From assembly GCF_020215665.1 (NCBI RefSeq), contig NZ_CP084061.1:4431001-4495000 (forward strand): a stretch of DNA of 64,000 nucleotides, read 5' to 3'. A program made the translations under genes and the position numbers. Of this stretch, positions 11,501 through 61,403 are shown one piece after another (position 1 is the first letter of the stretch; each line of letters opens with the position of its first letter). Under the pieces are notes generated by a model. That model saw only the letters and a program-made list of their open reading frames with translations, made no database searches and had not been told where the DNA came from. Source of the DNA: Blautia parvula (GTDB taxonomy: Bacteria > Bacillota > Clostridia > Lachnospirales > Lachnospiraceae).

Positions 11501-11533
11501 TATCCCCCAGGCACAGAGAAAGGAGAATAAGAC

Positions 11534-42813: not shown

Positions 42814-42842
42814 TTGACAAATATTACCAAATGAGTTAGAAT
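42814..42842 (+). promoter_or_regulatory. Promoter of the corrinoid-uptake gene train
   Basis: TTGACA (42814-42819), 17-bp spacer, TAGAAT (42837-42842). It is the only strong promoter seen before the two cobalamin riboswitches, so one RNA probably carries both. Confidence 0.85.
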
Positions 42843-42874
42843 GTAGCCATATCGAGAATATAGAAAAAAGATTG

Positions 42875-42995
42875 CAGTTTATTCTGATGCATAATGTCAG
42901 AATAATAATGGGAAATCCGGTGAGAATCCGGAACAGATGTAAATCTACTGTAAACAAAGTCAGTGCCCGCTGTTTTCCTGTCATGTACAAGGGAG
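42875..42995 (+). promoter_or_regulatory. Cobalamin riboswitch 1 (compact variant)
   Basis: GGGAAATCCGGTGAGAATCC (42909-42928) is the conserved P3-P4 part of cobalamin riboswitches; it is followed by a shortened CTACTGTAA and AAGTCAGTGCCCGCTG in place of the usual AGTCAGGATACCTGC. A TTATTCTGA/TCAGAATAA stem precedes it. The peripheral arms are small, so it may belong to a compact subclass whose ligand preference differs. Its own terminator follows at 43025. Confidence 0.8.
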
Positions 42996-43024
42996 CAGTC
43001 TGGGTATATTTATTATGAATCCAT

Positions 43025-43057
43025 AACGCCTTCCTGTATGTACGGGAAGGCGTTTTA
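43025..43057 (+). terminator. Terminator of cobalamin riboswitch 1
   Basis: AACGCCTTCC (43025-43034) pairs with GGAAGGCGTT (43045-43054), followed by TTATA. Confidence 0.85.
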
Positions 43058-43087
43058 TAGTTTGAACAGAAAAATTAAATATATCTT

Positions 43088-43240
43088 CTGTGGTCAGGGC
43101 AATAGCCCTGTTTAAAGGAATCCGGTGAGAATCCGGGCAGAACATCCCTGCTGTAAGGGGGACGAACAAAGCAGCAAAGCCACTGGGCATCATTCCCGGG
43201 AAGGCGCTTTTAGTAGGACGAACCCAAGTCAGAACACAAA
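43088..43240 (+). promoter_or_regulatory. Cobalamin riboswitch 2 (classical)
   Basis: Contains GAATCCGGTGAGAATCCGG (43118-43136), CTGCTGTAAGGGGGACGAAC, the GCCACTGGG ... GGGAAGGC arm (43179-43206), and the closing GACGAACCCAAGTCAGAACA. All core elements of a B12 riboswitch are present in order. It lies on the same leader as riboswitch 1 and has its own terminator at 43269. Confidence 0.93.
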
Positions 43241-43268
43241 CACAGTTGTGGCAAACCAATTATTTGCA

Positions 43269-43300
43269 GTGTCCGAAGGCATGACGGACGTGTATTTTTT
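43269..43300 (+). terminator. Terminator of cobalamin riboswitch 2
   Basis: GTGTCCG (43269-43275) pairs, with G-U pairs at the base, with CGGACGT (43285-43291), followed by TATTTTTT. Confidence 0.8.
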
Positions 43301-43409
43301 GTACCATTTTTTGAATAATTTAATAGATTATGACAAGACGAGGGCCCAGTCTTGTTGTGATAGATACTGCCGGAAGGCAAAATAAAAAATATCATAAGGA
43401 GGAAACAAA

Positions 43410-43934
43410 ATGAAAAAAGGTATGAAACGGTTTTTAGGTATTGTATTGGCAATGGTTATGATGCTGTCGATGAGCATCAGTGTGTTTGCAGCCGATAATG
43501 ATATTTCCGTAACGGTGACGTTAAATGCTGTGGCGGATGGGACACATCCTGCATTGAACGGGAGTGCTACAGTTAAAGTGGCGCCTGGTACCAATGTGGA
43601 GTTAATAGTAAAAGAAGCGCTTCCTAAGATGAACCTTGATATTACAAAGGGATTCTGGAAGGTGGTACCGGATTGGCAGAATCCAGATATTAAATACAAC
43701 GCAATAGATGGACTGTATATAGGTGGAACCGCAGAAACAAATCTGTTTTATCAGGGAAAAGCGTACGAGTCAGATGCTGCATATTATGGTGTGGGCTGGA
43801 CGTATTCGGGATTTGATGGAAATACACCATTAAATGAAAACAATTATATGAGCCAGAATACAATTAGCCAGGATCGTTCATCAGTTGTACTTAGCTATGC
43901 TAGCTACTATTATCCTAAAACTACTTCTAAATAA
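43410..43934 (+). CDS. Small secreted DUF4430-like protein
   Basis: A 174-residue protein with a clear signal peptide (cleavage after VFA, about residue 27) and no anchor. The mature part reads as one beta domain: ISVTVTLNAV...GSATVKVAPGTNVELIVKEALPKM, then GWTYSGFDGNTPLNENNYMSQ, which matches in layout the GWMYSVN...Y.L..GD motif of the DUF4430 domains in two downstream proteins. DUF4430 is the family of the C-terminal beta domain of intrinsic factor and transcobalamin. First gene after the two cobalamin riboswitches. Probably a released or partner-bound corrinoid-binding subunit (inference). Confidence 0.8.
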   Translation: MKKGMKRFLGIVLAMVMMLSMSISVFAADNDISVTVTLNAVADGTHPALNGSATVKVAPGTNVELIVKEALPKMNLDITKGFWKVVPDWQNPDIKYNAIDGLYIGGTAETNLFYQGKAYESDAAYYGVGWTYSGFDGNTPLNENNYMSQNTISQDRSSVVLSYASYYYPKTTSK

Positions 43935-43956
43935 AGAATATTAATATTCCAGGAGG

Positions 43957-43990
43957 ACAGGGCGGTATGGAGACATACTGCCCTGTTTCT
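43957..43990 (+). terminator. Attenuating terminator after the small secreted gene
   Basis: ACAGGGCGGTATG (43957-43969) pairs with CATACTGCCCTGT (43974-43986) around GAGA, with TTTCTT after it. It should make the first gene more abundant than the long genes that follow. Confidence 0.75.
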
Positions 43991-44027
43991 TAGTGAATTA
44001 ATATGAATATAATATGGAGGAAGAAAT

Positions 44028-47000
44028 ATGAAGAAGTTGCTAAAGATTTTGAGTATGGCAGTTCTTGTAATGATCGCAGTACTAAACAAGACAGATGTAT
44101 GGGCAGCAGAGAATACAGCAGATAATTCTCAGATACAGATAAATATAAAAAATAGCGACCATGAATTTTCATTACAGCCATTGGAAGAAAACGGAAATAT
44201 CTTTGTCGGAAACAAGGATTTTTATAGAATTTTTTATAATGATCAAATTATAATAGAAGGCGTTTTACCAGATTCCGAAAGCAAAGTTACAGAGGTCTTT
44301 GGTTCCTTGGATATATATAATGAAGAGGGAACCCTGTTCGCTGATTCAGATAAAAAAATAGAGAATACAGTAAAAGATGGAAAGACACATTTTATTATAA
44401 CCTATTCCAATATTATGAGTGATATGCAAATGTATTCCAATACATCTATATTTGGCGCATTGTATTTTGATATTAAAGTAGAAGCTGCAAATGGGAAAGA
44501 GACAGATCTTATAGCTGTTTTCAATACGGAAACGTCCTTTGGAGCAGACTCGGGTTATCCGTTTCTGGTTGAATATTTAGGCATTAAAAACAATGAGACA
44601 GATGAAATTTTATCAGGGGAAACAGAGAAAACAAATTTTGAAGACGGTCTATATCATTATGCTGAGCTGTCTGGTGATATAGATAATTTTTCCATGGTAG
44701 TAAACAGGCAGCAAAATAAAATGGAAACAATTAACCTAAGTGCCATAACGAAATCCTGCTTTTATTGGATGAATATAGGAAATAATTATATGTCAGTAAA
44801 CGGCAGCTCTCCACAACGGTTTGATGTAATCAGTAATATATATAAAGGAAAATACAACACTCCGGTCATCAAGCCTCATAAGGGTTTGAACGTAGTTAAT
44901 TTATCTTTTATTTTGGGTGTACCACCTATAAAGATGGATATTGATTTTAGTGAAATGCCTCCTGTGATGAAGATATTAGATACGAATATTAGCGTACCAG
45001 GATTAAACGAATCCGATAATATGCTGCCGAGATATGTTTTGAATATACCTTATATCTTTTACTGGGATGGTGAAGAGGCTGATATTGAAGAAAGCAGTGA
45101 CACGAAAATATCTGAGATTAAGGCAGTATCTTTTCCTGAAAACTATGTGTTCCCAATACAATATGAGACAGCGTTAGACAAGGAGTCCGGGAATTATATC
45201 ATCAGTGTTCCTAAAACATCAAAGAACAATAAACTTTTGCTCAGTGTTCTTCCCTCTGCCGGCGGAGCGAAGGTAAATGTCCTTGGAAACGAAAATAGCG
45301 AAGGTGGTTATTTTGATGACGGAAAAGGGGAATGCGGCAATTATATAGGAGTTAATTTAGATGATTCGGGTATAGAGATAGATGAGAGTGGAAACAAGAT
45401 TATAGATGTTGAAATTACTGCGCCGGATGGAGTGAGCAAAGATATATACAAAATAAAGGTGGTCCGTAAATCAAGTGGGTGTTCCTTAGAAGCTTTAACC
45501 ATAAAAGGAGGTACGGTAAAAGATTTAGAGCAAAGTTTGAACAGCGGGGAGAATAGTTTTATTCTGGAACTGGATTCTGATGATGGAGAGATAACGTTTG
45601 ATGATATTCAGATTTCTGCTGATGCAACTTATACAATAGACGGAACAGAAGTCGAAGATAATACTTACACGGTCAATGCAGGCGATGTCACCAGAATTGA
45701 GGTGACGGCTGAAGATGGATTGAATTCTAAGGTATATATTTTCCTTCATCAGAAACAAGATGGTACACTTCCATATTACTCTATTTCTCAGGAGACAAAA
45801 GATCTGGCGAATGATATTCTTTCCGGATGGTACGCACGTCCAGAAGAAGAGAAAAAGAATCTGGGAGGTTCATGGCCAATATTTATGGCATGTGCTACAT
45901 CAACAGATGAGAATAATAATTTGGACGGGGCGGCTGTGAATGATGTAAATGAAAATACATATAGTCAGCCCACCGACTATGCAAGGACAATCATTCAATT
46001 AATTATGACAGGAGAAAACCCATATAATTATACAGACGATAAAGGAAATAACCTGGTTGAACATTTGGAAAAAAATTGGACGGGACCATATGCTAATACG
46101 ATATGGGCGTTGATGGCTTTAAAAGCAGCAGGTGCCAATATACCTGATGGGTTGATAGATGATGTGACGGGGTTAGCTGCTTCTGATACGTTTGATCTGG
46201 ACATGCGTGCGTGGGCACTGGGGGCTATTGCTGACCAGGTTTCCAAAACTAAATTAGCATCCCTTGTGGAAGGATTTCGGTCGACGTTAATCACTGAGGG
46301 AGACGAAGCAGGAATGTTTTATAATTTCTGGTACAAGTATGCAAATACGATATCTCACGGCTGTGTACTTGAAGGAATGGCAGCAGCAGGAATCGATATT
46401 GAAAAAGTCTTTGCAGTAAGCGATACAATTACACCATTAAAGGCGCTTCAGAGATATCAGTTGGAGGATGGGTCGTTTTGGTATGATATCAGCCAAACAC
46501 AATCTATGTGGTCAAAAGATGCGATTATAGGTTTGGGAGATACTGTACATGGAGATAACGTATGGAGTCGTTATGCCCTGACTCTTGACAAATATGATAA
46601 TCTGATTGATACGGCCATGGAGTGTTATGGCGAAGACGGTTCCTCTATTACTGATGAAACCAAGAGAAAAGCTCTGGAGGATGCTCTGAATACAGCAAAT
46701 TCGGCACGTGCAGATGCGGAAAGCATTCAGGGGCTTGGGGACGAATATTATGCGTTATACGCAGCCGTTGCAGATGTGGATTATACATTGGTAGGACAAC
46801 CTCAGGTAAGAGTCTGCAGTTATGAAGAGTCCGTGCAGATTGACGCTGTAATTGAGTCTATCAGTAAATTGGAAGATTTAGCTTCTGTAACAAAAGAATC
46901 AGTTCAGACTGCCGGAAGTGCCTATGAAGCCCTTGGCGGTGATGATACAGAATTAAAGGAAAAGCTTCAGGGATATGTTACAAATAAGAGCGTTTTGAAA

Positions 47001-49280
47001 AAAGCAGAAGCCTATCTGAATTTCTCCGAATTAGTGGATGTCGTGGGAGAAGTAACCTTAGAAAGCGGACAGGCTATTCAGGATGCGGAAGCTGTATATG
47101 AAAACTTAGATGTGTCCTATAAAGACGATCAGTCATTTGCGGACAAGTACCAGGTATTGCTGGACAGCAGAAAAGTATATGATGTACTGTCAGCTATTGC
47201 GGCTCTGCCGTCTGAGATCACTTTGGATGATGCAGATACAGTGGAAAGCATCCGCACATCATATGACGCTCTTACAGATGATTTGAAATCAAAAGTTAGT
47301 AATGCATCCGCTCTTATACAGGCTGAAAAGACAATAAAAGATCTAAAAGCAGTTAAGAGTGTGGAAGCGCTGATCGCAGAACTGCCTTCTCCGGATGAGG
47401 TGACGGCAGAGGATGAGGCTGCTATTCTGGAGGCATACAGTAACTATAATCTGCTGACATCTGAACAGAAAGCAATGGTAAATGCTGAATTGTCGGAGAA
47501 ACTGGAAACGGTTTATTCTGCACTTGATCAGGCGAAAAAGGATGCGGCAGCTGTAAAAGATGTGATTGATAATATTGCAAAACTGGAAAATCTTGATGAT
47601 GTCACACTGGAGGATCAGGAGTTTATCAGAAATGTGCGCAGTCTCTATGATAATTTGTCCTCAGATGCTCTTCGTTCGCAGGTGAGTAATTATGATCTGC
47701 TGGTTGCGGCGGAGAAGAAACTTGAGACACTTGCCAAAGAAAATTTGTTGAATAAAGTTGAGAACCTCCCGTCACCGGATGAATTGGAAGGAACAAAGCC
47801 GGATGGATCTGATATCCAGATGACAGAAGAAATCCTGCGGGCAATTGCTGATGCAGTCAGCACATATCAACAGATGGATGATGCACAGCAGAAGATATTT
47901 GCGAATGAGAATCCCGATGCATATGAAAAGTTAATGACATTAAATACGATTGCGGAGCAGTACGAAGGATACGTGAATGAAGTCCTTGCACCTATTGTTG
48001 CAAGAATCGCAGCGTTTGAACTTCCTGTAACAAAATTCAATCTGGGAGAGGCTGGCGATCTGCTTACAAAATATGAGGCCAATGAGGATGCACGTACATA
48101 TCTTGACAGCATTGTCTGGGAAGACGGAACAAAGCTCGTTGACAAGATGGCTGCTCTAAAAGAGCAGATAGGACAGGTGAATGAGGATCTTACGCAGGCA
48201 GCAGCAGTAGATGCTATGATTGAGAAACTGCCGTCTGAGGTGACTGCAGATAATCTGTCGGATGTGAAAGCGGCACTGGAAGCGATCAAAACTGCTTATG
48301 AGGCATTAAATGAGCAGGCGCAGGAGTATGTGAATGATACAGGCACGTGGAACACTGTGGAGTCATTGGTAAAGAACTTCGAGAAATCACAGGAGAATGC
48401 AGAAAAAGTACTTGAAATGATGAAGGATGCTGTGGATGAAGATGCTTATGAGCTGACATCTGAAGAAATTATTACAGTGTTGAAAAGTGCGCAGGAGGCA
48501 TACGATGCCCTGACACCGGCTGAACAGGCATTGATACCGGCTGATGCTGTTGAGAACATGGAAACTTTGAAGGAGAAAATATCCAAGACTAAGACCAAGG
48601 ATTCTTCAGAGAACAATCTGGTTACATACAAGGGAAACATTCCATGGGATGTAGTCATCGAGATAGAATCAGTGGCACAGTCAGATAATTCCTATACAAC
48701 ACTCAGTGGAAAGCTGGATACAGATAAGAAAGCTTCTGTTATGAAAGTATTTGAAATCAAAGCGTACAGAGTACTTGCCGATGGAACGAAAACAGATTTC
48801 ATGGTAAGCGGAGGATTAACCTTTGTTGTACATACAGGAAACGATCTTACGGGTAAAACCATAGTTCTCGTTCATCTTCTGGACGATGGAACCGTCGAGT
48901 ATCTGGACTGTAAAGCAGATGGCAGTGATCTTACATTTACTGTGAAAAGTCTGTCCGCGTTTGCAGTCGGAGAGGTCAAGACAACATCCGGAACAGATGA
49001 TGAAGAGAAGGGTAACAACAATAATAACAATAATAACAATAATAACAACACAAACGGAAGCGGAAATAATTCTGGTTCCGGAAATAAATCAACATCCGGC
49101 TCTTCCAACAATAAATCTTCTGGAAGCGGTAATAAGTCCACTACTACAGGAGGAAGTACAGGTGTACCTAAAACAGGAGATACACTGGCATCTCAAATGG
49201 ACATTATGAATCTTCTTGTACTTGCCGGAAGCTTTATCCTGTTTGCATGCCTGAAAAAAAAGAGAGAGAATAACAGATAA
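44028..49280 (+). CDS. Giant sortase-anchored surface protein with alpha/alpha-toroid (intrinsic-factor-like) domain
   Basis: 1750 residues. Order: signal peptide (1-27); beta-rich N-terminal region without a family I know (28-340); two cadherin-like beta domains (about 362-580, with VVRKSSGCSLEALTI); an alpha/alpha-toroid domain (about 581-870, YYSISQETKDLANDILSGWY, ANTIWALMALKAAGANIP, DGSFWYDISQTQSMWSKDA) of the squalene-cyclase/intrinsic-factor alpha type; about nine helical repeats of ~70 residues (880-1525) forming a stalk; a beta domain (1530-1650); an Asn/Ser/Gly linker; sorting signal VPKTG (1713-1717), hydrophobic helix and KKKRENNR tail. It is far more AT-rich at its 5' part than its neighbours. 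Riboswitch control implies a corrinoid capture role. Confidence 0.85.
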   Translation: MKKLLKILSMAVLVMIAVLNKTDVWAAENTADNSQIQINIKNSDHEFSLQPLEENGNIFVGNKDFYRIFYNDQIIIEGVLPDSESKVTEVFGSLDIYNEEGTLFADSDKKIENTVKDGKTHFIITYSNIMSDMQMYSNTSIFGALYFDIKVEAANGKETDLIAVFNTETSFGADSGYPFLVEYLGIKNNETDEILSGETEKTNFEDGLYHYAELSGDIDNFSMVVNRQQNKMETINLSAITKSCFYWMNIGNNYMSVNGSSPQRFDVISNIYKGKYNTPVIKPHKGLNVVNLSFILGVPPIKMDIDFSEMPPVMKILDTNISVPGLNESDNMLPRYVLNIPYIFYWDGEEADIEESSDTKISEIKAVSFPENYVFPIQYETALDKESGNYIISVPKTSKNNKLLLSVLPSAGGAKVNVLGNENSEGGYFDDGKGECGNYIGVNLDDSGIEIDESGNKIIDVEITAPDGVSKDIYKIKVVRKSSGCSLEALTIKGGTVKDLEQSLNSGENSFILELDSDDGEITFDDIQISADATYTIDGTEVEDNTYTVNAGDVTRIEVTAEDGLNSKVYIFLHQKQDGTLPYYSISQETKDLANDILSGWYARPEEEKKNLGGSWPIFMACATSTDENNNLDGAAVNDVNENTYSQPTDYARTIIQLIMTGENPYNYTDDKGNNLVEHLEKNWTGPYANTIWALMALKAAGANIPDGLIDDVTGLAASDTFDLDMRAWALGAIADQVSKTKLASLVEGFRSTLITEGDEAGMFYNFWYKYANTISHGCVLEGMAAAGIDIEKVFAVSDTITPLKALQRYQLEDGSFWYDISQTQSMWSKDAIIGLGDTVHGDNVWSRYALTLDKYDNLIDTAMECYGEDGSSITDETKRKALEDALNTANSARADAESIQGLGDEYYALYAAVADVDYTLVGQPQVRVCSYEESVQIDAVIESISKLEDLASVTKESVQTAGSAYEALGGDDTELKEKLQGYVTNKSVLKKAEAYLNFSELVDVVGEVTLESGQAIQDAEAVYENLDVSYKDDQSFADKYQVLLDSRKVYDVLSAIAALPSEITLDDADTVESIRTSYDALTDDLKSKVSNASALIQAEKTIKDLKAVKSVEALIAELPSPDEVTAEDEAAILEAYSNYNLLTSEQKAMVNAELSEKLETVYSALDQAKKDAAAVKDVIDNIAKLENLDDVTLEDQEFIRNVRSLYDNLSSDALRSQVSNYDLLVAAEKKLETLAKENLLNKVENLPSPDELEGTKPDGSDIQMTEEILRAIADAVSTYQQMDDAQQKIFANENPDAYEKLMTLNTIAEQYEGYVNEVLAPIVARIAAFELPVTKFNLGEAGDLLTKYEANEDARTYLDSIVWEDGTKLVDKMAALKEQIGQVNEDLTQAAAVDAMIEKLPSEVTADNLSDVKAALEAIKTAYEALNEQAQEYVNDTGTWNTVESLVKNFEKSQENAEKVLEMMKDAVDEDAYELTSEEIITVLKSAQEAYDALTPAEQALIPADAVENMETLKEKISKTKTKDSSENNLVTYKGNIPWDVVIEIESVAQSDNSYTTLSGKLDTDKKASVMKVFEIKAYRVLADGTKTDFMVSGGLTFVVHTGNDLTGKTIVLVHLLDDGTVEYLDCKADGSDLTFTVKSLSAFAVGEVKTTSGTDDEEKGNNNNNNNNNNNNTNGSGNNSGSGNKSTSGSSNNKSSGSGNKSTTTGGSTGVPKTGDTLASQMDIMNLLVLAGSFILFACLKKKRENNR

Positions 49281-49295
49281 GAAAAGAGGAAGCAT

Positions 49296-52200
49296 ATGAA
49301 CAGAGGGAAAATGACATTAAAAAGAATATGGGCTTTCCTGATGGCATGCTTTCTTGGGCTGGGACTGGCGCTGGGAAATCCGGCGCCGGTTATGGCCAAG
49401 GATGCGTCCAGCTCCGTGATTTTATCCGTAGAGCGTTTTGCTCTGGGGAAGGGATGGGTGACAGTGCCTGATGTGGTGCCGCTGCAGAACGGAGATACGG
49501 TGGCTACGCTTCTGGAACGGTATATGGAAGAACAGGGATACCCTTGTATTGTTAAGCGGGATAGTTCCTATGGGTGGTACCTGGAGGGAATTACTGATGC
49601 GGATGGGGATGGACTTCCTCTCAGCATACCTCAAATCATCAAAAACAAAGCAAAAAAAGATGGATATAAGCTGGATGACAGCCTGATAAATGAGTACAAA
49701 CCAAACCTCACAGAGTATTCATATTCAAAAGAAAGCGCAGGAACCACAACGTCCGGATGGATGTATTCGGTCAATGAAGAGTTTCCGGGATATAGTATGA
49801 ACGGTTATAAACTGCAGGGCGGAGATGTTGTCCGGGTGCAGTTTAGTTTATATGGGACGGGGCTTGATGTGGAAGGGACTAATGCCTATGATTCCATTTA
49901 CAAAAAGGCTGATAAATCACAATTACTGACTAAGATTGCTTATATTAATCAGGATACAGAGTCCTGGCTTCCGGAAGAATCAGACAGAGCGGCATATGAT
50001 ACAGCGCTGACAGTAATGCAGAAGCTGAATGCCTCACAGAGTGAAGTGGATAAAGCACTGGAAAATCTGCCTCAGACACAAACAGTTTGGCCGGAGACCG
50101 TGGTTTTGTCAAGCAGTACCCTTAGTTTGTATGATAATGACAGTGCAGTGCACCTCAGTGCGGATATATATCCTCAGGAGACTTTATTTAAAAAAATTGC
50201 ATGGAGTTCTTCTGACGAGTCCATAGTCAGTGTTGACAATAATGGAAATATTATACCTCATGCACCTGGAGAGGCGGATATTACAGCAACCGCTCAGAAC
50301 GGCGTGAGTGCTTCATGCAGGGTTACGGTTACATACAGGCCATATACAGCCATTGGATTGGATAAGACGGCATTATTCTTTCAGGCAGAACAGACATACC
50401 AGTTCCAGGTGACCGGCACACCATCTAATGCGACAGAAGAACTCCAATTGGAGTGGAGCAGCAGCGACGAAAATGTGGCTGTAGTTTCCCAGGAAGGGCT
50501 TGTGACTGCAGTCTCAGCGGGAAATGCAGTTATTACGGTTGTAAAAGCAGGAAGTCAGATATCTGCGTCTTGTCAGGTCACAGTGGGTAATGCTATGGAG
50601 ATGGCAGAAGCAGCAGCGGGGCTGATCAGAGCACTTCCGAAAGCCGGAGAACTGACGATTCAGGATTCCGCTCAGGTGGCAGAAGCATCGGGAGCATATC
50701 AGTCGTTGTCTGAGGAGGCTAAAACGTATCTTGAAGACCGGGCAGAGCTGGAACAGAAGCTGGACAGGTGTGTATCCATGATGGAGGCTCTGCAGAAGAA
50801 GTATGCAAATGTAGCAGCAGCAGAAGAGCTGATAGGGCAGATTCCTTCTTTATCGGCACTGACCATTGACAGCAGCAAGACAGTGGAGGAAGCCCGGACC
50901 GCATATGAAGGTTTGAGGGCAGAAGAAAAGGTTTTGATCGATACTTCACTTAAGAACAAGCTGGACAGCGCAGTAAAACGTATGGAAGAATTAAAAGAGC
51001 ACGTGAATACAGTAAACAGTATCCTGGCATCTCTTCCTGAAACGTTAACCCTGGAGGAAGCTGAGCTGATTGGTCAGGCCGCAGAAGAGTATAATAATTT
51101 GGATGACGCGCAGAGGGCACAGCTTTTTACCGGTGCCGAGGAACGGCTGTCACAGGCACTTTCTGCATTGCCCCAGTTGATCACTGAGGCAGCGGAGGTC
51201 ATGGACACTACTGCTAAAGTAAATCTTGAGGCGGCAGAGACAGCAAATTTTCTCAAAGCAGCAGAAGCTTTTGATCAGTGGAAGGATTTGCTGGCCGTAA
51301 GTGAGAGTACAGCCAAAAAGATTCAGGATGTTAAGAATTGGATTGGAAGCAATATCCATAGCCAGAACGGTGTGACTGCAGATAGTTACTGGTATATTAA
51401 AACAAATGCAGAAAAAACCGGGGATACCCGGGAGGCTGAAAAAGCAATCCGTAAAAAATATAAGAACGCAGAGGATTGTAAGTCAGCATGGAATTTGTCT
51501 TATACTGACATCAGAGATGGTAATAGTTATGAGCAGGAAAAAAATGTAACCATGACTTTTTCAGTGAGCAAACTGTCTTCTATGGAGAATCCTGTCCTTT
51601 TTTCCTATAAAGATGGCAAACTGAAAAAAATGAAGGCGGAGATAAATTCTAAAGCAGATACGATTTCCACCAAGGCAAAGACAGACGGAATGTATTTGAT
51701 AGTGAATGTCCCTGTTCCTCTTACCGGGCTGAGTATGGAGAGTCAGATCCAGATTACAAAAGGCAATAGTAAAACGCTGACTCCAGAAAAAGTACCGGCA
51801 GATGCAACCAGTAAGGTGAATTATGTGTGGAAAAGTTCAGATTCTTCCGTTGTATCTGTGGACAGCAGTGGTGTAATTACAGCTAAAAAAGAAGGTACAG
51901 CCACTGTGACAGCTTCGGTTGAGGGCAAATCATCTATTAAAGCATCTGTAAAAGTAAAAGTCATAACAAAAGCGGACTCTCTGTCCCGTTCCGTGTCAGA
52001 TGTACTGGCAGAGACAAAGGCATATGTTCTTGCCACAGATAAAAACCCCACTGTTGGAAGCGAATGGTATGTGATCGCTCTTGCACGGGGAGGGATGGAT
52101 TTAAATGACAGTTATTTTTCTACATATTACAATCATCTGGCAAATTATTTAGCAGAGAAGAAGGGAGTGCTGACTGACACTAAAAAGTATTCTGAGTACA

Positions 52201-53351: not shown

Positions 53352-53356
53352 CATTG

Positions 53357-53394
53357 AAAAGAGGGAAAGTGCATTAGGGCACTCTCCCTTTTGG
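53357..53394 (+). terminator. Terminator between surface-protein and lipoprotein genes
   Basis: AAAAGAGGGAAAGTGC pairs imperfectly with GCACTCTCCCTTTT (ends 53392). Partial read-through is expected, because the transporter genes downstream have no other clear promoter. Confidence 0.65.
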
Positions 53395-53416
53395 TGCTGT
53401 GTTGGAGGCGAAACAA

Positions 53417-54631: not shown

Positions 54632-55670
54632 ACGGTCGGATGCATTTTCAGCCTGCCATCCTGCTGTAAATTTCTTTTACTTCATGCTTGTACTGCTGGT
54701 CACCATGTTTCTCAGCCATCCGGTCCTTCTGGGCATTTCCTTTTTGGGCGCATTTTTCTATGCGGTGCGCCTGAAGGGGTGGAAGGCTGTGGCAAAATTC
54801 AATTTGATCTTCACGCTTCCTGCTATGGTGATCGTGGCATTTATCAACCCGGCGTTTAACCACTATGGCGTCACTACGCTTTTTTATCTGAAGACAGGGC
54901 CGGTGACGTTGGAGGCTATTGTGTATGGAATCGTTCTGGCCTCCATGCTGTTTATTGCTATATTGTGGTTTTCCTGTTATAACGAGGTTATGACCACAGA
55001 TAAGTTCGTCTACCTGTTTGGCAGGGTGATTCCGGCGCTTTCCCTGGTGCTTTCCATGGTATTCCGCTTTGTGCCGAAATTCAATGCACAGGTAAAGGTT
55101 ATACGAAACGGGCAGAAATGCGTGGGACGTGATATGAGCAATGGAAAACTGATAAAGAAAATCCGTTATGGACTCACGATCCTTTCCATCCTGATCACCT
55201 GGGCCTTGGAGAACGCCATAGACACCTCAGATTCCATGAGGGCCAGAGGATACGGCCTGAAGGGCCGTTCCTCGTTCTCCATCTATCACTTTGACAGAAG
55301 GGATGTGACGGTCACAGGTATTCTGGCCGGGCTTCTGGGAGTATGCCTCTTGGGATTTCACTATGGGTTTTCCTTTGCGCAGTATGATCCGGTGATTAAG
55401 ATCGGCGGTATCCCGCTGACGCCTTGGAGCGTAATCACCTATCTGGCCTGGACGTTTATATGCTTTTTCCCCTTTCTGCTGGGATTATGGGAGGATGAGA
55501 GCTTTAAGAAACTGGAGAAGAAAATGCGTATGGACAGGGATATCCCCTGGTACTTAAAGGAAGATGAACCGGGCAGTGAGCAGAAGATTTTGAAGACAGA
55601 CATGACATTTACAGAATATATGAATGGCGGGAAAGAAACAGAGGGAGGAACGGAATGTGAATTGTATTGA
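54624..55670 (+). CDS. ECF transporter T component (EcfT/CbiQ type)
   Basis: A 348-residue membrane protein with about six helices. The coupling-helix signature is DTSDSMRARGYGLKGR (near 200-215), the arginine-containing motif that contacts the ATPases. The ATG at 54624 follows GGGAGA and overlaps the preceding stop codon. It lies with its own ATPase and S component, so this is a dedicated (group I) ECF system rather than one sharing a common energising module. Confidence 0.92.
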   Translation: MNKRSDAFSACHPAVNFFYFMLVLLVTMFLSHPVLLGISFLGAFFYAVRLKGWKAVAKFNLIFTLPAMVIVAFINPAFNHYGVTTLFYLKTGPVTLEAIVYGIVLASMLFIAILWFSCYNEVMTTDKFVYLFGRVIPALSLVLSMVFRFVPKFNAQVKVIRNGQKCVGRDMSNGKLIKKIRYGLTILSILITWALENAIDTSDSMRARGYGLKGRSSFSIYHFDRRDVTVTGILAGLLGVCLLGFHYGFSFAQYDPVIKIGGIPLTPWSVITYLAWTFICFFPFLLGLWEDESFKKLEKKMRMDRDIPWYLKEDEPGSEQKILKTDMTFTEYMNGGKETEGGTECELY

Positions 55671-57423
55671 AATAGAAAAGTTCAGTTTTCTGTATCCCCA
55701 GCAGACGGTACCTGCGCTGGCCGGGGTGGATATGACAGTGGAGGAGGGCAGCTTTGTTGTGCTGTGCGGAAAAAGCGGATGCGGAAAAAGTACACTTTTG
55801 AGACAGATGAAGACAGTCCTTGCCTCCCATGGACAGAAAAGCGGATGTATACGGTATTTTGGAACAGAGCTTGAAGAGGTGGATGAGAGAACCCAGAGTG
55901 CGGAGATTGGTTATGTGCTTCAGAATCCTGACAACCAGATCGTGACGGACAAAGTCTGGCATGAGCTGGCTTTCGGACTGGAGAGTCTTGGCTATGACAG
56001 TGCCACTATACGGCTCAGAGTGGCTGAGATGGCTTCTTATTTCGGTATACAGGCATGGTTCCTGCGTAATGTAAACGAGCTGTCAGGAGGCCAGAAGCAG
56101 CTTCTGAATCTGGCTTCTGTTATGGCTATGCATCCGAGGCTGCTGATCCTGGATGAGCCTACATCCCAGCTTGACCCCATAGCAGCCTCGGATTTTCTGG
56201 AGACAGTGAGGAAGATCAACAGGGATGTGGGAACCACGGTTATTCTTACAGAACACCGCCTGGAGGATGTGATCCCCTGGGCAGACCAGGTATATGTCAT
56301 GGATGGCGGCAGAATGATTGCTGACGGCACGCCCTCAGAGATAGGGCGGAAACTCAAGGAGCTGGGGCATGATATGTTTCTTTCCATGCCCACGCCTATG
56401 CAGGTATATGCCGGGGTGGAGAGCAGCCGGGAGTGTCCCCTGACCGTAAGGCAGGGAAGGAGATGGCTGGAAAAGGAGCTTGAAGACCTTCAGCTAAAGG
56501 CCGCAGAGTGTGAAGAAAACATAGGCGGAAACGGCAGGGAAACAGAATCCGTTCATCATGAGACAGAATCCGTCAGGAAGAGAACCCATGTATTTTCAGA
56601 GAAGGAAGTACCGGAAATACGTCTCAGAGATATCTGGTTCCGCTATGAGCGTGAGCTGCCCGATGTGGTGAAGGGACTTTCCCTGGATGTAAGGAAACGG
56701 GAAATCTTCGCGCTGGTGGGCGGCAACGGCACCGGCAAAAGTACCACCATGAATCTGATCGCCCGTATCCGCCACCCGTACAGAGGGAAAATATGGCTGG
56801 AGGGGAAGAGCATAGATAAATACACGGATAATGAGCTGTATCACGGCTTCCTCGGCGTAATGCCCCAGAATCCCCAGAGTCTTTTTGTGAAGAAGACAGT
56901 GCGGGACGATCTGTATGAAATGATTGACGGAAAAAAAGAAAAAAGGAGCGACGCTTTTTCCATAGAAATGAGCAAGAGAGATGCTGTTGCGGGAATTGTG
57001 TCCCTGACAAAGCTGGCGGACCTTTTAGACCGTCATCCCTATGATCTGAGCGGCGGAGAACAGCAGCGGCTGGCACTTGCAAAGGTGCTGCTGCTGCGCC
57101 CCAGGATCCTGCTCATGGATGAGCCTACGAAGGGGATAGACAACCACTATAAAAAAGAACTGGGAGAAATCCTGCGAAAGCTGACAGAACATGGTGTTAC
57201 CATTCTTCTCATTTCTCATGATGTGGAATTCTGTGCGCAGTACGCGGACCGGGTGGGTCTGTTCTTTGAGGGAAATGTGGTGACAAATAAACCGGCAAAA
57301 GAATTTTTTGCGGGAAACAGTTTCTATACAACCGCTGCAAACCGTATGTCACGACAGTTCTTTCCTGACGCGGTGACCGTGGAGGATGTGGTTGCAGGAG
57401 TGGATGCATACGTCAGGAGGTGA
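55657..57423 (+). CDS. Fused double ECF ATPase
   Basis: 588 residues containing two ABC ATPase domains: domain 1 with Walker A GKSGCGKST (near 35) and LSGGQKQLLNLASV, and domain 2 (from ~310) with Walker A GGNGTGKST and LSGGEQQRLALAKVLLL, both with DEPT Walker B ends. Together they replace the separate EcfA1 and EcfA2. The linker (~265-310) is charged. Start is GTG at 55657, 8 bases after GAGGGAGG and overlapping the end of the EcfT gene; an ATG at 55624 is possible but lacks a site. Confidence 0.92.
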   Translation: MNCIEIEKFSFLYPQQTVPALAGVDMTVEEGSFVVLCGKSGCGKSTLLRQMKTVLASHGQKSGCIRYFGTELEEVDERTQSAEIGYVLQNPDNQIVTDKVWHELAFGLESLGYDSATIRLRVAEMASYFGIQAWFLRNVNELSGGQKQLLNLASVMAMHPRLLILDEPTSQLDPIAASDFLETVRKINRDVGTTVILTEHRLEDVIPWADQVYVMDGGRMIADGTPSEIGRKLKELGHDMFLSMPTPMQVYAGVESSRECPLTVRQGRRWLEKELEDLQLKAAECEENIGGNGRETESVHHETESVRKRTHVFSEKEVPEIRLRDIWFRYERELPDVVKGLSLDVRKREIFALVGGNGTGKSTTMNLIARIRHPYRGKIWLEGKSIDKYTDNELYHGFLGVMPQNPQSLFVKKTVRDDLYEMIDGKKEKRSDAFSIEMSKRDAVAGIVSLTKLADLLDRHPYDLSGGEQQRLALAKVLLLRPRILLMDEPTKGIDNHYKKELGEILRKLTEHGVTILLISHDVEFCAQYADRVGLFFEGNVVTNKPAKEFFAGNSFYTTAANRMSRQFFPDAVTVEDVVAGVDAYVRR

Positions 57424-57428
57424 ACAGT

Positions 57429-58289
57429 ATGCTGCGGGATGATAAATTAGATGATTTTCTGGATGTGTTTTGGGATGAGAAGAGTGCAGACTCCGTGGAC
57501 ACGGATTTTTGGGAGGAGCCTCAGGGAAAGGAGAAACTTAATTATCTGGAATACAGTGACTTGATGGCTGTCCCGAAGAATAAGGGGAAACTGCCGCCCA
57601 GGACTCTGGCGGCTATATTTCTGATCGTGGTCATGATACCTGTGACCATATGGGTGGGGATACATTTTTTCAATGACAGGAAATATCTCCTGATCAGTCT
57701 GTTCATTGTGTTCTATTCTATGATACCGTTTTTTCTGACCTTTGAAAGCCGAAGGCCCCAGGCCAGGGAAGTGTTGATCATCGCAGTGCTCACGGCCATA
57801 GCGGTGGCCGGCAGGGCGGCATTTTTCATGGTACCCAGTTTTAAGCCGGTCATGGCGTTTGTGATCATATCGGCAGTGTGTTTTGGGGCCGAGTCCGGAT
57901 TTTTGGTAGGGGCACTTTCCATGCTGGTGTCAAATATGCTGTTTGGGCAGGGGCCATGGACGCCCTGGCAGATGTTCTCCATGGGTATCATCGGGTTTCT
58001 GGCCGGAATACTGTTCCAGAAAGGATGGCTGAAGGCCAGGAAGGTTTCTCTCTGTATCTTTGGTTTCTGGGCAGCCCTGTTTATTTACGGAGGAATCATG
58101 AACCCGGTGTCGCTGCTTATGTCCTCCTATGCCATAACGAAGAGGAACCTTCTGGCTATCTATATATCAGGGCTGCCGGTGGACATGGTGCACGGGGCGG
58201 CAACGGTTATCTTTCTTCTGCTCGCCAGTAAACCCATGATCGAGAAGCTGGAGAGAATCAAAATAAAATACGGTTTGATTGAGGAGTAG
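57429..58289 (+). CDS. ECF transporter S component, probably corrinoid-specific
   Basis: 286 residues: an acidic soluble N-terminal extension of ~55 residues, then about seven or eight helices. The core GRAAFFMVPSFKPVMAFVII and GFLVGALSMLVSNMLFGQGP block followed by WTPWQM fits the S-component fold of B12-linked ECF systems (CblT-like). The ATG at 57429 has AGGAGG 8 bases upstream; a GTG at 57420 is an alternative. Cobalamin or its precursor as substrate is inferred from the riboswitches, EcfT/EcfA neighbours and cbiZ. The long acidic N terminus is unusual for this family. Confidence 0.85.
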   Translation: MLRDDKLDDFLDVFWDEKSADSVDTDFWEEPQGKEKLNYLEYSDLMAVPKNKGKLPPRTLAAIFLIVVMIPVTIWVGIHFFNDRKYLLISLFIVFYSMIPFFLTFESRRPQAREVLIIAVLTAIAVAGRAAFFMVPSFKPVMAFVIISAVCFGAESGFLVGALSMLVSNMLFGQGPWTPWQMFSMGIIGFLAGILFQKGWLKARKVSLCIFGFWAALFIYGGIMNPVSLLMSSYAITKRNLLAIYISGLPVDMVHGAATVIFLLLASKPMIEKLERIKIKYGLIEE

Positions 58290-58292
58290 AGT

Positions 58293-59126
58293 ATGACAGA
58301 AGAGAAAAGGACGGAAGAGAAAGAAGCGGAAGACGTAAAGTCTGCGGATAAAAAGAAAAAAAACAGGATTCTGAATATTGTGATACTGTGTGCGGTATGC
58401 ATCATCGCCTATGGAGTCTTCAATATGATATCCCTGCAGAAGCAGTATAAACGGGCCGGGGAGGAATATGCCCGGGTGCAGAAGACTGCCGGTATGGATC
58501 AGGCAGAGGATGTTTCGGCTGATCCGAAGAAGGATGACGGGGATGCGGATGTTCCGGAGGTTCCGGATGTGCAGGTGGATCTGAAGTCTCTTCAGAAGGA
58601 GAATCCGGACACGGTGGCCTGGCTCTATTACCCGGCTCTTGGCATTAACTATCCGGTCATGCAGGATGAGGATAATACATATTATATCAAGCATACATTT
58701 TCCGGGGATAAGAACGCGGTGGGAAGTATTTTTCTGGATGCGTACGGAAATAAGGATTTTTCAGATGCAAATACCTTCATCTTCGGCCACAACATGAGGG
58801 ATGGCTCCATGTTCGGCAGTATGAAGAATATACGGGATGAGGGGACCGTCAAAGAGAATCCGTATTTCTGGATCTATACAGCGGATGGCTGGAGCAGATA
58901 CCGGATATTCTCCTATCATGATGCCAACGCCACAAAAAAAGATATGGCATTCCAGATCAAGTTTGAAAACGAGCAGGCGCATCAGCAGTTCCTGCAGACC
59001 ATACTGGACGCTTCAGAAGAGAAGCTGGGCGTGGAAGTGACGATCAGGGATAAAGTGGTGACCCTGGCCACCTGTACCAGTGACGCATCCGTAAGGCTTG
59101 TCATTCACGGGGTACAGAAGGATTAA
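58293..59126 (+). CDS. srtB: Class B sortase
   Basis: A 277-residue sortase with an N-terminal membrane helix (about 25-47) and a linker rich in Asp/Pro. The domain start NPDTVAWLYYPALGINYPVMQ is class B. Catalytic residues are His166 (FGHNM), Cys261 (LATCTSD) and Arg268 (VRLVIHG). Only one sorting signal (VPKTG) is seen in the window, in the 44028 protein, so it is the likely substrate. Gene order inside the corrinoid train supports this. Confidence 0.92.
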   Translation: MTEEKRTEEKEAEDVKSADKKKKNRILNIVILCAVCIIAYGVFNMISLQKQYKRAGEEYARVQKTAGMDQAEDVSADPKKDDGDADVPEVPDVQVDLKSLQKENPDTVAWLYYPALGINYPVMQDEDNTYYIKHTFSGDKNAVGSIFLDAYGNKDFSDANTFIFGHNMRDGSMFGSMKNIRDEGTVKENPYFWIYTADGWSRYRIFSYHDANATKKDMAFQIKFENEQAHQQFLQTILDASEEKLGVEVTIRDKVVTLATCTSDASVRLVIHGVQKD

Positions 59127-59158
59127 AAAGTATAAGGACGGCGAAAAGGAAAAGATAT

Positions 59159-60247
59159 ATGATGCAGGATAAAAGGTTTCTGCCCGGCAAAGGGGATAAA
59201 CTCTATAGAGATGAAAAATATATTGCCGCGGTTTTCGGAGGAAAAAGGAAGGTTCTGAGCACTTCGCCCCAGAACGGGGGATTGAGGACAGACTTAAAAG
59301 CTGTATATAATTATGACGGCGGACAGGAGGGGGAAAAGGAGATACGGCTTGAGGGAGGGACCTATGAAAGTCATATGCGTTATGTCTCTGACAGCATCAT
59401 AGGTTTGTCAGCGGACTCGTCATCAGGTATTATGACAGCCGCCTCTATGAAAAATGCCTCTTATGTCAGGACACAGTACAGGGATATTGCCGTCAGCGTG
59501 ATCGCAACAGGCGGTATTGAAGTCAACGCCGGGCGTGCAGGGGACCGGGCATCCTGGTACGAGAAGGACGGGGTCTGGGTGGATCTGGACGGGGAATGCA
59601 GGCATACACTGGGAACGATCAATCTTATGATTTTCCTGAATGCGGACCTGACAGACGGGGCCATTGCCAAGGCCCTGATAACCTGTACAGAGGCAAAAAC
59701 AGCCGCGATCCAGGAGCTGTGCATAGCCAGCAGATATTCCCACGGGCTTGCCACGGGTTCCGGTACAGACGGCACGATCATTGTGGCTGACATGGAGTCT
59801 GATTTTAAGATCACGGAGACGGGCGCACACAGCAAAATAGGAGAAATGATAGGATGTGCGGTGAAAGAGGCTGTGATGGAATCCCTGTTTCTGCAGACTG
59901 GCGCAGGCGCCAGGATGCAGCACAATGTCTTCCGAAGGCTGGAGAGATTCTGCATAACGGCAGATGCGGCAGCCTCCCGTGCTGTGGAGACAGGCGTCAT
60001 AGAGCCGTCAGAACAGGCGGATTTTAAGCGGCAGGCAGAAGAGTGGGCAGGCTGCGGAGATGCAGTTTCATGGGCCGCTCTTGAAGCGCATCTGCTGGAT
60101 GAGAGGGAGTGGGGGATGCTGAAGGAAAGGGAAGTGCTGGATGCGGAGAGGAAGCTTCTGTGTGCATTCGGGATGGACAGTCCCCGTATGGGAGAGGATG
60201 CTGTTCTCATGGATCATATTATTTTTGCGATTAAAGAAAGAATATGA
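59159..60247 (+). CDS. cbiZ: Adenosylcobinamide amidohydrolase CbiZ
   Basis: A 362-residue protein. The CbiZ core is unmistakable: VSVIATGGIEVNAGRAGD (near 113-130), GTINLMIFLNADLTDGAIAKA and ATGSGTDGTIIVADM. CbiZ cleaves the aminopropanol-phosphate-nucleotide arm from adenosyl-corrinoids such as pseudocobalamin and gives cobyric acid, so imported foreign corrinoids can be rebuilt with the cell's own lower ligand. About 130 extra C-terminal residues are helical. Starts: ATG at 59159 (or 59162), with AAAAGGA upstream. Last gene of the train. Confidence 0.93.
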   Translation: MMQDKRFLPGKGDKLYRDEKYIAAVFGGKRKVLSTSPQNGGLRTDLKAVYNYDGGQEGEKEIRLEGGTYESHMRYVSDSIIGLSADSSSGIMTAASMKNASYVRTQYRDIAVSVIATGGIEVNAGRAGDRASWYEKDGVWVDLDGECRHTLGTINLMIFLNADLTDGAIAKALITCTEAKTAAIQELCIASRYSHGLATGSGTDGTIIVADMESDFKITETGAHSKIGEMIGCAVKEAVMESLFLQTGAGARMQHNVFRRLERFCITADAAASRAVETGVIEPSEQADFKRQAEEWAGCGDAVSWAALEAHLLDEREWGMLKEREVLDAERKLLCAFGMDSPRMGEDAVLMDHIIFAIKERI

Positions 60248-60257
60248 GCCGGAGGAA

Positions 60258-60286
60258 TTGACAGATACCGGCCATTGTGCTAAAGT
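60258..60286 (+). promoter_or_regulatory. Possible promoter for the riboswitch 3 transcript
   Basis: TTGACA (60258-60263), 17-bp spacer, TAAAGT (60281-60286). A TATAAA at 60296 is an alternative -10. Confidence 0.55.
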
Positions 60287-60349
60287 AATCATGTGTATAA
60301 ATTCCATATCAGCTTGCCAAGTGCATCAGGATTTAGTTTTGCCCTCTTT

Positions 60350-60500
60350 TAGAAAATCCTGGTGAAAAGGGAATCAGGTGTAAGTCCTGGACGATCCGGT
60401 CACTGTGAGCGGGGAGCGAAGCGCATAAGTCCATTGTATAAGAGATTATATGAGAAGGAGCGCCGAACGAAGATCCGTGAGTCAGGAAACCTGCTTGGAT
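60350..60500 (+). promoter_or_regulatory. Cobalamin riboswitch 3, before the DUF2284 gene
   Basis: GGGAATCAGGTGTAAGTCCT (60369-60388), GGTCACTGTGA, then the closing GAGTCAGGAAACCTGC (60479-60494), the canonical B12-box end. The leader continues 350 bases to the gene and includes GCAGGAGG.GCCC (60622-60639) pairing with GGGCCTCCTGC (60711-60721), and a terminator at 60743. Confidence 0.9.
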
Positions 60501-60742
60501 GAGTAAAAGGTTGAGACTTCCGAAGAAAGTTTTCCATCCATTATGTTATTTGATATGGAATGCCTGCTTAGAACGTGAACGAAACAGGAACCTGTGTGAG
60601 GAATTTATGCATCCATGAAAAGCAGGAGGAGCCCAAGAGACGATTTTGTTTCTATATGTTTTATCCTCCGCACCCCAAATGTATAGATTGGTCTGACATC
60701 ATCCGCTCATGGGCCTCCTGCAGGTAAAGGAAATAGTGTTAG

Positions 60743-60780
60743 AAGCTGCTGCGGGATAACTGCCTGTCAGCAGCTTTATT
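60743..60780 (+). terminator. Terminator of the riboswitch 3 leader
   Basis: AAGCTGCTG (60743-60751) pairs with CAGCAGCTT (60768-60776), followed by TATTTAT. It lies ~250 bases after the aptamer, so the long stem 60622-60721 probably transmits the signal. Confidence 0.75.
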
Positions 60781-60851
60781 TATGACAGGGACAGCCGGCA
60801 GAGTGTCCGTGCGAGACAGACCGGAGGGATTCAGAAGGGAGAATCAGTAAT

Positions 60852-61403
60852 ATGCGTGAAGAAGATTTGATTGCAGTCGCTGAGGATGCGGGGTTTGCGA
60901 AAGCCGCCGTAATGAACACGGAAGATTTAGAATTTGAACATGAGTTCCGCAAGTTCTGCGAACAGAACGACTGTGGAAATTATGGCAATAACTATGGATG
61001 TCCACCCTACTGCGGAACCCCCGAAGAGATGGAGAACAGAGTTATGCAGTACCGCCGGGCGGTAGTTTTCCAGTCCAGAACACCTGTTAACAACATCTTT
61101 GATGATGCGGAGACAAAACAGATCAAGAAGATACACACCCGGATGACACTGCGCACAGTAGAAGAACTCAAGAGAAGAGGACTGGATAAGGACGGCATGT
61201 TCGTCATGTGCGGACCCTGCAACCTGTGCGACGCATGTAATATGCCGGAAGGAAAACCATGCGTGCAGGAGCAGAATCGTTTTTCCTGTCTGTCTGCGTA
61301 TTGTATAGATGCGGCGAAGATGGCGAAACACTGCAATATGAATATGCAGTGGAATGGGGATGTGGTTTCGTTTTTTAGTATGTATCTTTTTGATAAAAAA
61401 TAA
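60852..61403 (+). CDS. DUF2284 Cys-rich metal-binding protein
   Basis: A 183-residue protein with 12 cysteines in two groups: near 35-55 (CEQNDCGNYGNNYGCPPYC) and near 118-160 (MCGPCNLCDACNMPEGKPC and further Cys). The pattern is that of DUF2284, predicted metal or iron-sulfur binding proteins. Cobalamin riboswitch control links it to corrinoid metabolism, perhaps as a reductase or reactivase part for the Co centre; this is inference. GAAGGGAG upstream of ATG. Confidence 0.85.
   Translation: MREEDLIAVAEDAGFAKAAVMNTEDLEFEHEFRKFCEQNDCGNYGNNYGCPPYCGTPEEMENRVMQYRRAVVFQSRTPVNNIFDDAETKQIKKIHTRMTLRTVEELKRRGLDKDGMFVMCGPCNLCDACNMPEGKPCVQEQNRFSCLSAYCIDAAKMAKHCNMNMQWNGDVVSFFSMYLFDKK

Follow-up and report, generated by a model that had tools for sequence, protein, structure and literature searches.

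Relation to described systems

Bacterial surface proteins that pair a transcobalamin-type SLBB domain with an alpha/alpha toroid were described by Burroughs et al. in 2007, in the article that defined the SLBB superfamily (PMC1796856). According to the parts of that article covered here, the two domains are fused in either order and the proteins carry Gram-positive anchors, their operons contain CbiO- and CbiQ-like genes, in many cases together with another SLBB paralogue, and the host usually lacks B12 synthesis, a usual and not a defining feature; the authors proposed that the proteins scavenge B12 and that the SLBB-toroid pair was transferred to animals. Here we describe a locus of this kind in Blautia parvula, within a stretch of 64,000 nucleotides that we term the window. 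It comprises a nine-gene operon that very probably encodes a riboswitch-controlled system for the capture and import of corrinoids (the vitamin B12 family), with putative salvage or remodelling by CbiZ. An initial interpretation made from the DNA alone (the sequence-only reading) had proposed the same function, which is supported by the riboswitches, a CbrT-like S component, CbiZ and the distribution of cbiD. Its doubt as to whether a bacterial equivalent had been described is answered by the article of 2007, in which SLBB-toroid surface proteins in CbiO/CbiQ operons had already been reported.

The locus shares with those systems the DUF4430 (SLBB) and toroid domains, secretion or wall anchoring, SLBB paralogues and the motor genes of an energy-coupling factor (ECF) transporter: the window encodes PF14478 in two proteins, a toroid, a CbiO-like ATPase (TIGR04520) and EcfT. 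It differs in that riboswitches and sortases are absent from the words of the main text of the article, that the parts of it covered contain neither a CbrT-type S component nor CbiZ, and that the window genome belongs to a predicted cobamide maker, unlike the usual host. The core idea has been known since 2007, and in the literature searched only this prediction and ECF-CbrT were found for Gram-positive bacteria; no experimental study of these toroid/DUF4430 surface proteins was recognised in the open-licence literature searched. New here are the CbrT assignment, the riboswitch enrichment, the cbiD profile and the structure searches that retrieve all three animal carriers, as well as a variant that includes a sorting signal, a sortase and CbiZ.

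ECF-CbrT of Lactobacillus delbrueckii (6FNP) imports cobalamin and cobinamide through CbrT, as stated in the parts of its description covered (PMC5997447), and shares with the locus a homologous S component, EcfT and two ATPase domains. In contrast to ECF-CbrT, the window system has its own motor genes in the operon, a double ATPase in one chain, an N-terminal extension on the S component, and additional extracellular DUF4430 and toroid proteins. Both folds of animal intrinsic factor, transcobalamin and haptocorrin are found in the system, as judged from the window toroid and from a tandem model of a relative, locus L089. Sequence identity to the animal carriers was, however, only 11 to 15% in 15 matches, the clamp geometry was not reproduced, and the window domains sit on separate or very large proteins. 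Furthermore, the animal toroid family Cobalamin_bind, which we take to be PF01122, was not among the matches of the ten window proteins searched at E values up to 0.1 (for the ATPase, among the best 25 of 42). The surface lipoproteins BtuG and BtuH of Bacteroides likewise capture B12 at the cell surface and are, from the parts of the articles covered, a functional analogy (PMC6143338, PMC8941943); theirs is a Gram-negative route that involves BtuB. A survey of cobalamin riboswitch regulons (PMC3766115) contains none of the terms DUF, surface and CbrT in its main text.

Gene content and transporter of the operon

The window genome is a single contig of 6.25 Mb. Nine genes between 43410 and 60247, all on the + strand, are separated by intergenic gaps of -47 to +93 bases:

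43410 to 43934, + strand: small protein of 174 aa, signal-peptide-like start, without Pfam match over the cut-off
44028 to 49280, + strand: giant surface protein of 1750 aa with one divergent toroid, helical repeats and a C-terminal VPKTG sorting signal
49296 to 53351, + strand: surface protein of 1351 aa with DUF4430, Ig-like Big_2 domains, helical repeats, a toroid and a C-terminal membrane anchor
53417 to 54631, + strand: DUF4430 protein of 404 aa, probable lipoprotein (PF14478, E 1.6e-18), gene directly before EcfT
54627 to 55670, + strand: EcfT-type transmembrane protein; a GTG start at 54591 is also possible; many relatives adjoin the same genes
55624 to 57423, + strand: EcfA-EcfA' double ATPase in one chain (TIGR04520, E 1.5e-103; two ABC_tran stretches)
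57420 to 58289, + strand: CbrT-like S component with a long N-terminal extension; best solved relative 6fnp_A
58293 to 59126, + strand: class B sortase (TIGR03064, 165 bits, cut-off 153.75, E 1.4e-48)
59159 to 60247, + strand: CbiZ, adenosylcobinamide amidohydrolase family (PF01955, E 1.1e-52)

These assignments rest on Pfam and NCBIfam searches of ten window proteins with E values up to 0.1, for the ATPase on the best 25 of 42 matches. The EcfT gene had no match in either collection, and its putative identity is assigned by position and conservation. With this qualification, the ECF T, A and S components named in the sequence-only reading were recovered, as were its class B sortase and CbiZ.

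In a comparison with PDB sequences, the S component matched 6fnp_A with an E value of 9e-20 as a profile, with the next entry at 2e-4, and the window protein alone gave 1.3e-10; judging from its size (182 aa), chain A of 6fnp is CbrT. In many relatives (L024 to L029, L031, L040, L110, L135 and others), a single chain of ~800 to 1060 aa combines EcfA with the S component.

The same genome contains a second, minimal unit (L066:5937-7107; genome positions 4592936-4594106), in which the gene for a DUF4430 protein of 140 aa adjoins that for a CbrT-like S component of 179 aa. The only PDB match of the latter at E values up to 1 was 6fnp_A (2.9e-14), and the unit lies behind an adenosylcobalamin (AdoCbl) riboswitch that scored below threshold (32.5 bits, gathering score 50, E 0.0086). 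By sequence likeness, this unit supports a link between DUF4430 and CbrT-type corrinoid transport.

Distribution of the system

EcfT matches were detected in 45 of 200 genomes of the same family, including the window genome. We analyzed 46 same-family loci, namely the window and 45 loci fetched from 44 genomes (two loci came from one genome), of which 44 contained DUF4430 and 34 a toroid. A scan of named genomes yielded at least 575 confirmed EcfT stretches, and 80 of these loci were examined; they include Blautia, Acetobacterium, Clostridium, Terrisporobacter, Paenibacillus and Enterococcus, and contained the S component in 73, DUF4430 in 71 and a toroid in 62 cases. The combined survey thus covered 126 loci, many of which end at contig edges. 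All 96 toroid-bearing loci also had a DUF4430 gene. A fused toroid-DUF4430 protein was present in 45 loci, whereas 51 had the two domains on separate proteins only, 19 had DUF4430 only, and 11 had neither. In 100 of the 126 loci, a DUF4430 gene was located immediately upstream of EcfT. The layout of the window (VPKTG toroid protein, DUF4430-toroid protein, lipoprotein, EcfT, EcfA and S component) is found again in L067, L068 and L080, with the first gene of the layout running off the locus edge in each. A sortase then follows in L068 and L080; in L067, none was found within 2.3 kb behind the S component.

Cobalamin riboswitches and the distribution of cbiD

The following control elements were identified:

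42814 to 42842, + strand: promoter-like site (TTGACA, 17 nt, TAGAAT; 11 of 12 consensus matches), directly 5' of riboswitch 1
42858 to 42988, + strand: cobalamin riboswitch 1, compact form (RF00174, 36.5 bits, E 1.2e-5)
43025 to 43054, + strand: intrinsic terminator between riboswitches 1 and 2 (13-pair stem, then a T-rich tail; -21.3 kcal/mol, z -5.8)
43074 to 43258, + strand: cobalamin riboswitch 2, full-length form (RF00174, 72.4 bits, E 6.5e-16)
60322 to 60512, + strand: cobalamin riboswitch 3 (RF00174, 88.3 bits, E 1.8e-20), preceding a DUF2284 gene

The tandem pair and the third riboswitch, all proposed from the sequence alone, scored above the RF00174 gathering score of 31.5 in the covariance search. 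The entire genome contains six above-threshold cobalamin riboswitches, so that half of them are in the window.

The association of such riboswitches with the system was analyzed in 40 of the 44 other system-bearing genomes of the family, the window genome and four others being set aside. Of 62 cobalamin riboswitches, 61 of which were above the Rfam cut-off, 23 were located no more than 12 kb from an EcfT gene, as compared to 0.51 expected, and 22 of the 40 genomes had a riboswitch at this distance. A similar association was observed for DUF4430 genes more than 15 kb away from EcfT, 12 of which, out of 23 (one of these places being below the curated cut-off), were within 6 kb of a cobalamin riboswitch (0.24 expected); some of these 12 neighbour one another. 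In other genera, a riboswitch at any position and on either strand was detected within 13 to 21 kb in 18 of 21 named loci, hand-picked from the 80 for long flanks and mostly from cultured strains, and none was present in L103, L104 and L135. A crude pattern count, positive in 31 of the 80 named loci, was not used as evidence.

The system was concentrated in genomes without cbiD, which was present in 10 of the 45 system-bearing genomes as compared to 110 of the 155 other genomes of the family (Fisher P 7e-9). This distribution fits a scavenging role and agrees with the usual absence of B12 synthesis noted by Burroughs et al., in that 35 of the 45 genomes lack cbiD; the window genome, one of the 10 with the gene, does not fit. 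The Fisher and Poisson values are too sharp, since genomes of one family are related and were treated as independent.

Domains of the surface proteins

The domains and motifs of the 1750-aa, 1351-aa and 53417 proteins are as follows:

45786 to 46559, + strand: alpha/alpha toroid of the 1750-aa protein, residues 587-844 (domain E 2.4e-50 to toroid profiles)
49164 to 49181, + strand: VPKTGD sorting motif of the 1750-aa protein, read from the sequence
49428 to 49856, + strand: DUF4430 domain of the 1351-aa protein, residues 45-187 (E 8.4e-42 to the family profile; PF14478, E 2.7e-6)
52047 to 52910, + strand: toroid of the 1351-aa protein, residues 918-1205 (profile E 1.6e-109; AlphaFold2 model; Foldseek)
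54233 to 54613, + strand: DUF4430 domain of the 53417 lipoprotein (E 1e-59 to the family profile)

Profiles thus placed a toroid in each of the two giant proteins, as had been predicted, and both DUF4430 proteins (49296 and 53417) were above the Pfam cut-off. The sequence-only reading had also called the small 43410 protein DUF4430-like; this was rejected, as the protein scored only 2.5 bits against the DUF4430 profile and had no Pfam match over the cut-off. Of 13 related genomes, only 2 contained matches to it, all of them partial and either short or broken.

Within each domain type, the window copies belong together. The profiles grown from the two DUF4430 domains collected the identical 67 open reading frames (ORFs), and those seeded from the two toroids collected 38 and 39 ORFs, 38 of which were in common. 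In a single-sequence search, the toroid of the 1750-aa protein matched the profile built on that of the 1351-aa protein with 40.1 bits (E 1.5e-14). In the aligned set, DUF4430 domains were 27 to 70% identical to the 53417 domain, the other window copy showing 33%.

The 1750-aa protein ends in a motif, a hydrophobic stretch and a basic tail (VPKTGD...KKKRENNR) and has a TIGR03064 sortase encoded nearby, so it would be sorted by the sortase of the operon; the VPKTGD motif is also present in L067, L068 and L080. No LPXTG was seen at the C-terminus of the 1351-aa protein. The 53417 protein is a probable lipoprotein from its lipobox, TGGC, which is atypical; the relatives in L068 and L067 have LAGC and AAGC. 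Anchoring varies among relatives and includes sorting signals, membrane anchors and, as judged by eye, S-layer-like C-termini.

Structural comparison with animal B12 carriers

Residues 890-1222 of the 1351-aa protein, which contain the toroid, were modelled with AlphaFold2 from an 86-row alignment, giving a predicted local distance difference test score (pLDDT) of 96.5 and a predicted template modelling score (pTM) of 0.94, and the model was compared with the PDB using Foldseek. Both domains together were modelled in a natural toroid-DUF4430 stretch, residues 612-1078 of the homologous locus L089 of Tissierella simiarum (pLDDT 92.1, pTM 0.77). The first 15 PDB matches of this tandem were exclusively transcobalamin, intrinsic factor and haptocorrin (E 3.3e-11 to 1.3e-8). 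The tandem also matched the isolated beta domain of human transcobalamin (5no0 and 5np4), with target template modelling (TM) scores of 0.77 and 0.74 and a root mean square deviation (rmsd) of 2.6 A. According to the title of 5np4 in the match list, this beta domain is bound to cyanocobalamin, and such a domain can therefore bind cobalamin without a toroid. In the tandem model, a helix (373-384) is followed by two strands (388-393 and 398-404), i.e., a beta-hairpin after the helix.

The prediction that the two domain types correspond structurally to both halves of the carriers was therefore supported by the window toroid and the L089 tandem, DUF4430 being modelled in the relative only and the window copies being linked to it by sequence. 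Of the structure predictions that the sequence-only reading had called for, that of the toroid of the 1351-aa protein gave a model that fits the carrier fold, with squalene cyclase first by E value.

Proposed mechanism and alternatives

We infer a system that cobalamin would switch off via the tandem riboswitches. The toroid and DUF4430 domains on the wall- and membrane-anchored proteins would bind corrinoids in the manner of the intrinsic factor and transcobalamin domains, the membrane-bound DUF4430 protein encoded beside EcfT would hand the ligand to the CbrT-like S component, and the EcfT/EcfAA' motor would power import. CbiZ would then open the imported cobamides or cobinamide, which the late cobamide genes of the cell itself would rebuild. 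In a cobamide-making host, import together with CbiZ may save cost or convert foreign cobamides.

A number of observations weigh against this proposal or parts of it. A cobalamin riboswitch was not detected in 8 of the 40 system-bearing genomes. The window genome itself encodes the anaerobic cobamide pathway, with homologues of CbiK, CbiL, CbiH, CbiF, CbiG, CbiD, CbiJ-E-T, CbiC, CbiA, CbiB, CobD, CobS and CobT, a partial match to CobU, and a second CbiA/CobQ-type gene that we take for CbiP; by gene content, corrinoid import is therefore not essential to this predicted cobamide maker. Relatives of the sortase and CbiZ were rare, with 0 and 1 in the 45 fetched same-family loci and 2 and 3 in the 80 named loci. 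Since the window layout recurs in three loci with the sortase following in two of them, we class the sortase and CbiZ as accessories.

Further such observations concern the structures. Among the matches of the window toroid alone, squalene cyclase was first by Foldseek E value (1.2e-5) and transcobalamin 29th (3.8e-4). By query-normalised TM score, transcobalamin chains were at the top of the 50 matches listed (4zrp_B 0.59, 7qbf_A 0.57, 2v3n 0.56; next 0.53), whereas by target-normalised TM score the GH88 glycoside hydrolase 4q88_B (0.52) exceeded 4zrp_B (0.50). Because the three measures rank the matches differently, the modelled toroid appears compatible with the carrier fold, yet does not single it out. 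The L089 tandem aligned with the 15 carriers with TM scores of 0.40 to 0.44 by query length and an rmsd of 10.0 to 11.6 A, so that the closed clamp was not reproduced. The link to the animal carriers emerged from structure comparison only: the toroid sequence profile retrieved squalene cyclases and prenyltransferases and none of the animal B12 carriers (34 matches, E up to 1), the tandem profile gave no such carrier among 25 matches at E up to 10, and the DUF4430 profile found nothing in the PDB.

The capture and import system may extend to a relay with a split clamp, in which a toroid and a DUF4430 domain on different proteins close around one corrinoid in trans: the wall protein would bring the ligand, and the membrane DUF4430 protein at the transporter would complete the clamp and feed CbrT. 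We regard this extension as a plausible and testable hypothesis, though somewhat less likely than not. Alternatively, the giant surface proteins may hold or store corrinoid, or strip competitors or host carriers, without any relay, the lipoprotein and the transporter working independently. This variant is compatible with the corrinoid core of our proposal; we regard it as doubtful, although the 19 loci with DUF4430 only, some of which end at contig edges, imply that the transporter may work without toroid proteins, and the type of anchoring differs between relatives. From the parts of its description covered (PMC6143338), the Bacteroides protein BtuG acquires B12 that is bound to intrinsic factor, which is also in keeping with stripping. 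However, the surface genes form a tight, co-linear operon with the transporter, and the occurrence in 51 loci of separate toroid and DUF4430 proteins, with no fusion, looks as if both were needed.

The remaining alternatives depart from corrinoids altogether. That the transporter carries another vitamin, such as riboflavin or folate, with the surface proteins acting as adhesins or glycan-active toroids, would agree with the match of the S component to ECF-ribofla_trS (E 1.2e-13; folT was below the cut-off), the pectic acid lyase match inside the toroid of the 1351-aa protein (E 9e-5) and the likeness of the toroid model to glycosyl hydrolase folds. We consider this highly improbable, as CbrT leads the solved S components by 15 orders of magnitude in E value and as the cobalamin riboswitch linkage, the cbiD profile and the carrier-like tandem all argue against it. 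Cobalamin riboswitches also control cobalt transporters, and the window genome has CbiM and CbiQ behind one of them, so that uptake of cobalt under cobalamin control has to be weighed as well. It appears scarcely credible, given that there was no CbiM-type match among the ten window proteins searched, that the S component is CbrT-like and that most system-bearing genomes of the family lack cbiD and would therefore hardly need cobalt for making corrins.

Corrinoids are cofactors for which there is competition in the gut, and proteins that capture them have been studied experimentally in Bacteroides. If corrinoid capture and import is the function of the system, widespread Bacillota (at least 575 stretches), mostly without cbiD in the family tested, take up B12 via surface proteins resembling intrinsic factor; this would assign a function to DUF4430, offer an origin of the animal B12 carriers that can be tested, and make the system, in gut species, a candidate competitor for the B12 of the host. 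If the split clamp is also correct, the animal carriers would descend, by fusion, from an ancient uptake relay of bacteria, and Gram-positive bacteria would possess a physical wall-to-membrane path for a vitamin.

Control elements and neighbouring genes

The tandem riboswitches differ in architecture, a compact form being followed by a full one with the terminator in between. In riboswitch 1, only 2 nt stand opposite 68 positions of the RF00174 model, and the missing part is presumably most of the P7-P11 arms. The terminator, one of two such sites found in the region as compared to 1.0 expected, is the probable expression platform of riboswitch 1, and the pair is possibly a two-ligand gate. 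Two promoter-like sites were found in the region versus 2.2 expected in shuffles, and position is therefore the main argument for the site upstream of riboswitch 1.

Riboswitch 3 is followed by one further gene, probably a separate unit:

60852 to 61403, + strand: DUF2284 Cys-rich putative metal-binding protein (PF10050, E 3.2e-44)

The Cys-rich protein anticipated at this place was thus found and belongs to DUF2284. The window genome has five other DUF2284 genes, none of them near a detected cobalamin riboswitch. A search of 30 chosen genomes, 22 of which had a DUF2284 match, revealed by eye, among the matches listed, no pair closer than ~10 kb except that of the window, and the idea that DUF2284 is generally tied to cobalamin riboswitches was dropped.

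Cobalamin riboswitches were also observed beside other genes. At L063:3436-6950, a CbiO-type ATPase fused to the cobalt chelatase CbiK (554 aa) is encoded behind such a riboswitch, and its gene adjoins CbiQ, CbiM and a protein of 99 aa that resembles CbiN in size. In L064, a riboswitch (~11527-11706, - strand, 117.4 bits) precedes a peptide/nickel-type ABC transporter with an SBP_bac_5 protein (L064:7136-11390); a B12 riboswitch before NikABCDE has been reported for Clostridium tetani and Desulfitobacterium hafniense in the part of the source covered (PMC2667541). At L065:4091-9042, a riboswitch (~7400-7591, - strand, 94.3 bits) is located between a MATE-family gene and a valyl-tRNA synthetase gene, the latter ~500 bases downstream of it and an unexpected partner.

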